Part shown: positions 53,504-55,668 of the stretch, piece by piece
Numbering within the stretch: position 1 is the first letter of the stretch
Layout of the letters: each line of letters opens with the position of its first letter
DNA from: Williamsia soli
GTDB taxonomy: Bacteria > Actinomycetota > Actinomycetes > Mycobacteriales > Mycobacteriaceae
Length of the DNA stretch: 64,000 bases
Assembly (NCBI RefSeq): GCF_017377795.1
Contig: NZ_JAFRDR010000006.1
Coordinates: 186,001-250,000, forward strand
Direction of reading: 5' to 3'
Position numbers and translations under genes: made by a program
The notes under the pieces: model-generated
Told to the model about the DNA's origin: nothing
The model's database searches: none
The model's input: the letters and a program-made list of their open reading frames with translations, nothing else

Positions 53504-54385
53504 ATGACTCAAGCGCTCGCGTCGGTGGTGGAATCCGGCGCCGCCCGGATCCGGTCGGTCCCGGGTGGTTCGCTGGTCCTGCAGATCGTGTCGGATCTCG
53601 CCCGCAGCGAGATCGCCGACCGGGCGATGACCCTTGCGGGACAGGCCTTCACCTCGATTCTCCCGGTGATGATCCTGCTGTCCGCGATCCCGGGCAAGGG
53701 CGTTCTCGACGACGCGCTCGAGGGGTACGATCTCACCTCCGGCGACCTGGCGCTCGGATCCTCGGGGACGCAGGATGCCGCCGTGACCTTTGGGGTGATC
53801 GGCGCGGTGATGACCCTCGTGAGCGCCACCTCGTTCTCACGCGCCCTGGACCGGATGTACTCCCGGGTCTGGGGCGTGCCGCGGCTGTCCCTGAAACAGA
53901 GCTGGCGTTGGCTGGTCGTCATCGTCGCTGTTGCGATCGGTGTGGCGATCCAGACAGTCCTGCCCTCGCTCCGCGACGTCTGGTCGATCCGCGCGGCCGT
54001 CGACTTCGGTATCGAGCTGGCGCTCGGGTACCTGCTGTGGGCTGTCCTGTGGTTCGGGATCGCCTGGCTGCTCACCTCGGGCCGCATCAATACGCGGTGC
54101 CTGCTGCTCAACGCCGGCATCACAGCCGCGGGGCTCACCGTCTTGGTCGTGGCGACGCATATCGGGATGTCCCGGGTGCTGGCCTCGGCGACGGATCAGT
54201 TCGGCATTCTCGGCGTCATCTTCACAGTGATCAGCTGGCTGTTCGTCTTCTCTGCGATCGTCATCGCCGCGACCGTGATCGTCCATGCACTGTTCGTCGA
54301 AGAAGGTGTGGTCGGACGGTGGTTACACGCCGCCGACGATCCGGGCCCTCGGGTCGACCCGCCACGGGCGGTGGCCGTCGACTGA
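53504..54385 (+). CDS. YihY/BrkB-family inner membrane protein
   Basis: This 293-residue polytopic protein of the YihY/virulence factor BrkB family has six hydrophobic helices. It starts with an amphipathic SDLARSEIADRAMTLAGQAF and contains VTFGVIGAVMTLVSATSFSRAL, LLWAVLWFGIAWLLTSGR and VISWLFVFSAIVIAATVIVH. These proteins were once called RNase BN and are now regarded as transporters or envelope proteins of uncertain role. A gene-free stretch follows that carries a candidate minus-strand RNA. Confidence 0.87.
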   Translation: MTQALASVVESGAARIRSVPGGSLVLQIVSDLARSEIADRAMTLAGQAFTSILPVMILLSAIPGKGVLDDALEGYDLTSGDLALGSSGTQDAAVTFGVIGAVMTLVSATSFSRALDRMYSRVWGVPRLSLKQSWRWLVVIVAVAIGVAIQTVLPSLRDVWSIRAAVDFGIELALGYLLWAVLWFGIAWLLTSGRINTRCLLLNAGITAAGLTVLVVATHIGMSRVLASATDQFGILGVIFTVISWLFVFSAIVIAATVIVHALFVEEGVVGRWLHAADDPGPRVDPPRAVAVD

Positions 54386-54398
54386 GGTGCGGGCCCAC

Positions 54399-54570
54399 GA
54401 AAAAGCCGCCGACCAGATGGTCGGCGGCCTCCTCGATGCCAGGGACGGTGCCCGCCAATGCGCCTCTCGGCAAGTGGCCGCTCTCGGCGGCTTATGGGGT
54501 GGTACCCGGGGCTTGATCCGGACACCGTCAGATCTCTCAACCGGATGATCGAGCGATCTATTCCATCGTA
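54399..54570 (-). ncRNA. candidate structured small RNA with intrinsic terminator
   Basis: No convincing protein gene lies in 54386-54696. Read on the minus strand, the region forms a closing stem (54519-54528 with 54443-54452, ten pairs including one G-U that would be a C-A clash on the plus strand). It holds two inner hairpins with GAGA-type loops (54476-54490; 54461-54470, GCC-GAGA-GGC), followed by a 10-bp hairpin (54404-54427, loop ATCT) and five U residues (54399-54403), a textbook intrinsic terminator. A -10-like TACGAT lies at 54564-54569 on the minus strand; no clear -35 is seen. The 5' end is a guess. I do not recognise the RNA class. Confidence 0.45.
54404..54427 (-). terminator. 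intrinsic terminator of the candidate RNA
   Basis: A perfect 10-bp GC-rich stem (GCCGCCGACC pairing with GGTCGGCGGC) with a 4-base loop is followed on the minus strand by five T residues. On the plus strand no T-run follows, so its direction is minus, although no protein gene is transcribed that way here. Confidence 0.7.
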
Positions 54571-54696: not shown

Positions 54697-55668
54697 ATGA
54701 GCAAGCGTCGGATGTTCGGTCGCGACCCGGAGGTGCACGAGCACGACCTCGGCCTCTCCCACGATATGAAGACGATGTCGCGACGCGGAGCCTTGGCCCT
54801 GTTCGGCGCGGCAGGCGCCACCGCCGCACTCGCGGCGTGCGGTTCGTCGTCTTCGTCGACGACGGCGGCATCCTCGTCGACGGCCACCGCAGGTACCAGC
54901 ACCTCGACCGCTGACGCGGTGGGTGAGTGCGTCACCGCAGCGCCCGGCGAAACCGCAGGTCCGTACCCGGGCGACGGCTCGAACGGCCCCAACGTCCTGG
55001 TCGAATCGGGGATCGTCCGTAAGGACATCACCGGTAGCTTCGGTGCGTCGACGGGTACAGCCGAGGGTGTCCCGATGACCATCACGATGGCGCTGCAGGA
55101 TCTGACGAAGAATTGCGATCCGGGCACCGGCATGGCGGTCTACCTCTGGCATTGCGACCGCGACGGCGAGTATTCGCTGTACGGAAAAGCGATCACCGAC
55201 CAGAACTACCTGCGCGGCGTGCAGGTCGCCGGCGCCGACGGCACTGTGTCGTTCACCTCGATCTTCCCGGCCGCGTACTCCGGCCGGTGGCCCCACATCC
55301 ACTTCGAGGTCTACGACTCCCTCGAAGTCGCGATCGCGGGAGAGAACGCCCGGCTCACGTCGCAGATCGCGCTGCCGCAGGAGGCCTGCGACGCGGTCTT
55401 CGCCGGTGCGGAAGGGTATGAGAAGAGCGTCACCAACATGACCCGCACCACCTTGTCGTCGGACAACGTGTTCGGTGACGGCTGGGATGCCGAACTCGCC
55501 ACCGCCACCGGCAGTGTCTCCGCCGGCTACGACATCGCGATCACTATCGGTGTAGCCGCGAAATCGGAGAACGCCCAGGCTGCCCCGCCTGCAGGTGGCG
55601 GCGGACCGGGCGGCGGTCCCGGTGGTGAGGGTGGCCCCGGCGGCAGCGAACCCCCGGCGATGCCCTGA
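54697..55668 (+). CDS. exported intradiol dioxygenase-like lipoprotein
   Basis: A 323-residue protein with a twin-arginine signal (MSRRGALALFGAAGATAALA) ending in a lipobox (LAAC) about residue 48, a Ser/Thr-rich linker, and an intradiol (protocatechuate 3,4-dioxygenase beta-like) domain. Iron ligands are expected in TAGPYPGD, LWHCDRDGEYSLYG (tyrosine) and GRWPHIHFEVY (two histidines). The tail is a Gly/Pro-rich run. Family members of this exported type are common in actinobacteria and their substrates are unknown. The start at 54697 follows GAAGGAG at good spacing; the frame is open to 54574. Confidence 0.9.
   Translation: MSKRRMFGRDPEVHEHDLGLSHDMKTMSRRGALALFGAAGATAALAACGSSSSSTTAASSSTATAGTSTSTADAVGECVTAAPGETAGPYPGDGSNGPNVLVESGIVRKDITGSFGASTGTAEGVPMTITMALQDLTKNCDPGTGMAVYLWHCDRDGEYSLYGKAITDQNYLRGVQVAGADGTVSFTSIFPAAYSGRWPHIHFEVYDSLEVAIAGENARLTSQIALPQEACDAVFAGAEGYEKSVTNMTRTTLSSDNVFGDGWDAELATATGSVSAGYDIAITIGVAAKSENAQAAPPAGGGGPGGGPGGEGGPGGSEPPAMP

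Follow-up and report, generated by a model that had tools for sequence, protein, structure and literature searches.

A candidate structured small RNA gene of Williamsia soli with counterparts across the class Actinomycetes

Introduction

Several described small RNAs (sRNAs) resemble the locus reported here in one respect or another. 6C RNA is an actinobacterial sRNA with C-rich unpaired parts, and the sRNA SorY of Rhodobacter depends on an alternative sigma factor for its transcription. The available part of PMC9130861 presents Ms1 RNA (scr3559) as a widespread actinobacterial stand-alone RNA, and the available part of PMC8388888 presents scr2952 as an expressed, conserved sRNA of Streptomyces coelicolor.

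The present RNA lies on the minus strand of the window, by which we mean the whole stretch of 64,000 nucleotides of Williamsia soli DNA that was analysed. It shares the C-rich unpaired parts and the actinobacterial host with 6C RNA but differs in that no gathering-level match to that family was found in the window or in the scanned copies. The likeness to SorY is one of analogy, as a stress-sigma-driven sRNA, whereas the match itself scores only 15.9 bits where gathering requires 111, which is chance level. Compared to the Ms1-like fold, given as 220–235 nt and at another locus in the part of PMC9130861 available, the conserved core of the present RNA is only ~90 nt.

Comparison with known RNA families

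Rfam 15, whose library includes models for tmRNA, RNase P, SRP, 6S and 6C RNAs, gave no gathering-level match in the window and none for the RNA in eight representative loci, one of which contains a tRNA elsewhere; the initial annotation had likewise not recognised the RNA as any of these five classes. At the permissive level, only sub-threshold matches appeared. We found no description of the RNA family in the open-licence literature, and the RNA is apparently unclassified.

The closest lead comes from Streptomyces. SCO2952 is a HelD gene according to the available part of PMC8655204. The Streptomyces-like copy of our RNA sits between a HelD/HelR-like and a malic enzyme-like gene, both below NCBIfam cut-offs. 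These neighbours fit the pair SCO2952-SCO2951, the latter of which we take to be the malic enzyme gene, so that the copy lies at a place where scr2952 of S. coelicolor could lie and scr2952 may be the same RNA, in which case a transcript would already be known. The identity is a lead only, drawn from the gene neighbourhood, and there are differences: scr2952 is in Rfam according to the part of PMC8388888 available, yet no gathering-level match was found in 13 kb around the Streptomyces-like copy, and neither a class-wide family nor SigR control is mentioned in the available parts of PMC8388888 and PMC8655204. None of PMC3765725, PMC4681348 and PMC4895711 has the string "2952" in its main text, "scr2952" is absent from PMC11678152, and the available parts of PMC4046766 and PMC10771440 hold no link to the RNA. 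The word "undescribed" in the initial annotation thus calls for the reservation that the RNA's Streptomyces counterpart may be scr2952.

Overall fold of the RNA

Folding of the minus strand at 54400–54530 gave −68.9 kcal/mol with a z-score of −4.20, equalled by none of 200 shuffles, compared to a z-score of −2.18, equalled by 4 of 200 shuffles, for the same stretch on the plus strand. The fold previously proposed for the minus strand is thus borne out. The predicted gene spans 54400–54530 on this strand (~130 nt), with its 5′ end placed by the promoter spacing and its 3′ end by the U-run. From 5′ to 3′, it consists of the 5′ arm of a closing stem P1 (54519–54529), a junction strand GCCCCGGGTACCACCCC (54496–54512), two hairpins H1 (GCCGC-CGAGA-GCGGC, 54477–54491) and H2 (TGCC-GAGA-GGCG with a GNRA-type loop, 54461–54472), the 3′ arm of P1 (54444–54454), and a 10-bp terminator hairpin (54405–54428) followed by a U5 tail (54400–54404). 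The 3′ arm of P1 was assigned from covariation and the predicted fold, the junction strand from the column table of the alignment, the terminator hairpin from a terminator scan and the fold, and the U5 tail from the sequence.

The two inner GAGA-type hairpins, as well as the 10-bp hairpin and U5 at the 3′ end, are present as first described. The closing stem was recovered too, with 11 pairs rather than ten: 54519–54529 pairs with 54444–54454, and the 3′ arm originally given as 54443–54452 was about two bases off. Similarly, the structured span had been drawn as 54399–54570, of which 54400–54530 contains the fold; 54531–54570 is predicted from sequence to be the promoter, outside the transcribed part (~54400–54530).

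Covariation and conservation

Two covariance models were built, and the alignments A4 and A5 were both fitted to a covariance model. In a MAFFT alignment of 25 sequences made without structure, six pairs are altered on both sides and yet kept. Among 100 model-aligned sequences, 97.6% of the cells are paired, compared to 36–41% with the partners slid, and the covariation score is 0.519 against 0.144 after shuffling; this alignment, being fitted to the structure, favours pairing, the contrast nonetheless being large. Changes on both sides were found at all 11 pairs of P1 (at the outermost pair in one sequence only), two of the three pairs of P2 and two of the five pairs of H1. The sequence of P1 diverges widely between families with its pairing kept. 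P2 is a short helix with two variable pairs, each of which is unpaired in ~7% of the cells; the window copy has A-A at one of them. RNAalifold suggested a further helix within the junction (a third one, GGG/CCC), which was left out of the model, given no both-side change and 4–15% unpaired cells per pair. The comparisons indicate that the structure is under selection, the stems showing among relatives the conservation and covariation on which the initial annotation had let its proposal depend.

Over the 100 relatives, G-U cells exceed A-C cells by 140 to 4 in P1, H1 and H2, and for this reason the minus strand is taken as the sense strand. The strand-specific wobble pair first noticed in the window is U54522-G54451.

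According to the column table, the near-invariant letters fall in the junction strand, the loops of H1 and H2, and the stem of H2. The element CCCCGGG-YHYCA (54500–54511, minus strand) within the junction strand is nearly invariant, with CCCCGG belonging to the scan pattern for some copies. This pattern, which yielded at least 120 stretches among the matches listed, required portions of the junction and of both hairpins, so that the near-invariance of those letters, including the H2 stem, is partly by construction; P1 lay outside the pattern. Altogether, the sequence data strongly support the strand, the fold (closing stem, short P2, two hairpins and C/G junction), the conservation and a putative promoter that would put the start at the base of P1.

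Distribution among Actinomycetes

The core is present in eight of nine genomes of the genus, G001 being the one without it, and a DNA search found it in 133 of 301 genomes of the family. With the covariance model from 25 sequences, the RNA was matched in 22 of 61 genomes at the family level and in 88 of 148 at the class level, the latter from 50 of 82 genera and mostly with a single match. A phylum sample of 246 genomes gave 18 matches, every one inside the class Actinomycetes. Samples of more than 40 genomes were strictly filtered and limited to few candidates each, which makes these presence and copy counts lower bounds. The distribution is wider than the initial annotation suspected. Carriers among the matches listed include Gordonia, Nocardia, Rhodococcus, Williamsia, Mycobacterium, Geodermatophilus, Nakamurella, Nocardioides, Microbacterium, Arthrobacter, Leifsonia, Cellulomonas, Kocuria and Tessaracoccus. 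One copy per genome was found in g49, a Streptomyces-like genus, so the RNA gene could be deleted there.

Plasmid copies were found in 68 of 72,556 records (61 of Rhodococcus and 7 of Gordonia), with as many as five in a single listed record; the gene table behind this count lists no RNA genes. Phages gave no match. Two weak, longer matches in a genome of the same order, G390:C1:800166–800288 (+, 43.6 bits) and G390:C1:1105733–1105853 (−, 39.5 bits), may be divergent members.

In total, 195 model matches were collected, of which 192 remained after three identical ones were dropped; the flanks sufficed in 191 for the promoter test, 172 for the terminator test and 176 for the T-run count. A cruder set of 190 copies from a regular expression includes at least one chance match (the second in L029).

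Putative promoters and the predicted sigma factor

Directly before P1, an ECF-type pattern GGAA[T/C/A]-N16-20-GTT occurs in 109 of 191 copies, compared to 2 of 1304 control windows farther upstream. A SigA-like TANNNT 3–12 nt before P1 occurs in 81 of 191 copies, against 3 of 1304 such windows. Of the 191 copies, 157 have one pattern or both (33 copies) at a constant spacing to P1, and 34 have neither. The strict form GGAA[T/C]-N17-19-GTT is found in 90 of 187 copies, the window copy among them, compared to 0.3% in shuffles. Promoters were judged at the pattern level throughout.

The two types were sorted by genus name in 66 of 80 loci among the matches listed. The ECF type was observed in Gordonia, Mycobacterium, Geodermatophilus, Nakamurella and five of six Nocardia copies; the SigA type alone in Leifsonia, Curtobacterium, Kocuria, Tessaracoccus and five of seven scored Nocardioides; and both types in seven of eight Microbacterium. 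Two Arthrobacter copies without either pattern have TTGACA upstream, as seen by eye. A SigA-type promoter would drive the RNA in other lineages, for example Leifsonia, Kocuria and most Nocardioides sampled.

In the window, GGAATA-N17-GTTG occupies 54538–54564 of the minus strand. It provides a putative −35 element GGAATA of SigH/SigR type (54559–54564), invariant in eight genus copies, and a putative −10 element GTTG (54538–54541), assigned from the genus copies, the genome-wide pattern count and the promoter test. The genome has eight sites of this pattern and none of the reversed one. Another of the eight lies 96 nt ahead of a Mec/CysO/CysM-like operon, presumably a SigR/SigH target. The products of this operon are similar to a protease of the desampylase type, a small ubiquitin-like protein and a cysteine synthase, all below NCBIfam cut-offs. 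Of the eight sites, those of the RNA and the cys operon alone appear meaningful, the remaining six not being evidently ahead of stress genes. The genome also encodes one SigH_actino above cut-off (367 bits), adjoining RsrA (TIGR03988, 104.9 bits against a cut-off of 62.5), and GGAAC-N18-GTT starts 52 nt ahead of the predicted sigH start. On account of the promoter sites, the sigH and rsrA genes and the motif ahead of sigH, control of the window copy by SigH/SigR appears likely. In the lineage of the window, SigH/SigR, once freed from RsrA under thiol-oxidative or heat stress, would transcribe the RNA from a start near 54530 to the U5 terminator, giving a transcript of ~130 nt.

If such control is true, an RNA arm would be added to the known thiol-stress response in bacteria where, in our judgement, RNA regulation is little explored. 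The covariance models, coordinates and promoter predictions can be checked at once against existing RNA-seq.

Possible modes of action

We consider it probable, taken as a whole, that the locus belongs to a family of stand-alone RNAs across the class Actinomycetes, driven here by SigH/SigR. By a weaker inference, the RNA would act in trans on a common target throughout the class, most likely a protein or ribonucleoprotein (RNP) reading the junction and the hairpin loops, since in these parts the sequence is conserved and in P1 only the pairing. From the sequence pattern, the chance that the RNA binds a protein or RNP rather than pairing with mRNA is not far short of even.

Close behind comes a trans-acting antisense sRNA with a conserved seed, the C-rich junction strand of which would pair with G-rich sites of mRNAs and repress translation under stress, in the manner of other sRNAs controlled by stress sigma factors. 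We regard this as possible, though the less probable of the two. Antisense pairing is a common mode of action of bacterial sRNAs, and both the nearly invariant unpaired C-rich strand and the stress-type promoter would suit it. However, CCCCGGG does not complement a Shine-Dalgarno sequence and includes CCCGGG, which is self-complementary; the YHY beside it differs by lineage; and no match beyond chance was found in the rRNA contig of the genome. In the latter search (5291 bases), the longest complement was 10 nt, compared to a mean of 9.6 and a maximum of 15 for shuffled sequences, and no identity of 9 nt or more was seen, so that rRNA mimicry or pairing was rejected.

No target or partner was found among the candidates considered, the rRNA contig and a linked ~210-aa protein. 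We propose tentatively, as a picture with a somewhat less than even chance, that an unclassified class-wide RNA serves one shared machine, such as transcription or translation. Control of its expression would have changed hands repeatedly, from the housekeeping sigma factor to the thiol-stress factor SigH/SigR or back, with extra copies on Rhodococcus and Gordonia plasmids, some of them beside other global regulators.

Terminator and probable transcription unit

A terminator-like hairpin follows the RNA in sense orientation in 38 of 172 copies, compared to 4 of 172 when the opposite flank is read in antisense and 4–6 of 172 at three control distances; the downstream stretch read on the opposite strand gave 19 of 172. 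A T-run straight after P1 occurs in 16 of 176 copies, against 1–3 in controls. The window copy has a clear terminator with U5, which the simple scan omitted, perhaps because the stem runs into the U-run (12 pairs in the fold), and which a separate scan detected. From the promoter patterns and the terminator of the window copy, the RNA looks like its own transcription unit.

An RNA processed from the 3′ UTR of an upstream gene would need no promoter of its own. Among the 185 scored copies of the cruder set, the upstream gene shares the strand of the RNA in 110 and lies on the opposite strand in 75, an excess that would allow some of the copies to be carried on a transcript from upstream. Nevertheless, the upstream neighbour of the minus-strand RNA in the window is a plus-strand gene, so no upstream mRNA is available there, and the promoter patterns keep their fixed distance from P1 in the great majority of copies. 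We therefore rate processing as very unlikely. The covariation, the promoters at a constant place and the strand-specific wobble pairs strongly support the stand-alone minus-strand RNA first suggested for the window, and a stand-alone structured small RNA is, as judged from these features, almost certainly what the locus encodes.

Neighbouring genes and linked features

Genes near the copies were called by our own GC-frame script. Of 192 copies, the next downstream gene shares the strand of the RNA in 83 and lies on the opposite one in 87, 22 not being scored, and the cruder set gave 101 and 80, respectively. With its terminator and the conserved unpaired bases of its compact junction fold, the RNA recalls a riboswitch plus expression platform and could in principle be a cis-acting riboswitch or attenuator of the next gene. 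However, the next gene is convergent in the window, gene neighbours vary even inside the genus, a constant co-directional downstream gene was not found, and the absence of a clear strand bias argues against cis-regulation, making this reading marginally less probable still than processing from a 3′ UTR. Least credible of all is the reading that the structure arises incidentally from a small coding gene or belongs to the plus strand, for example as a T-box-like leader. Open frames are frequent in this GC-rich DNA and the plus-strand GGGGTGGTACC resembles the T-box bulge, but the excess of G-U cells, the promoters and the terminators all favour the minus strand, spacing changes of 1–2 bases shift the frame, Rfam gave no T-box match, and the gene that follows on the plus strand resembles a dioxygenase rather than a synthetase gene.

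The genes flanking the RNA in the window give weak matches below Pfam cut-offs, to BrkB at 53504–54385 (23.5 against 33.7 bits) and to an intradiol dioxygenase at 54697–55668 (26.4 against 27.3 bits). In four other genomes of the genus (L005–L008), the RNA lies elsewhere, between DMT/EamA-like and PhoU-like genes named by eye, and Pst- or PiT-like genes were seen by eye near some other RNA loci.

In part of the class, a gene for a ~210-aa protein is linked to the RNA, for example L145:6455–7081 (−), in a cluster of 72 loci. It is present in 45 of 148 class genomes, 44 of which have the RNA, at 1 kb or less in 32. The protein is predicted to be all-helical (pLDDT 86.5). No Pfam match above cut-off was found for seven of these proteins, no NCBIfam match for one, and no convincing solved fold (best E 0.52). 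It was rejected as a general partner, none of the 45 carriers belonging to the family or order of the window.

In six Rhodococcus plasmid records (L238–L243), the neighbours of the RNA include Lsr2, mIHF, cold-shock, LigD and SOS-peptidase genes, a setting that gives a hint of a general role, as opposed to a local one.
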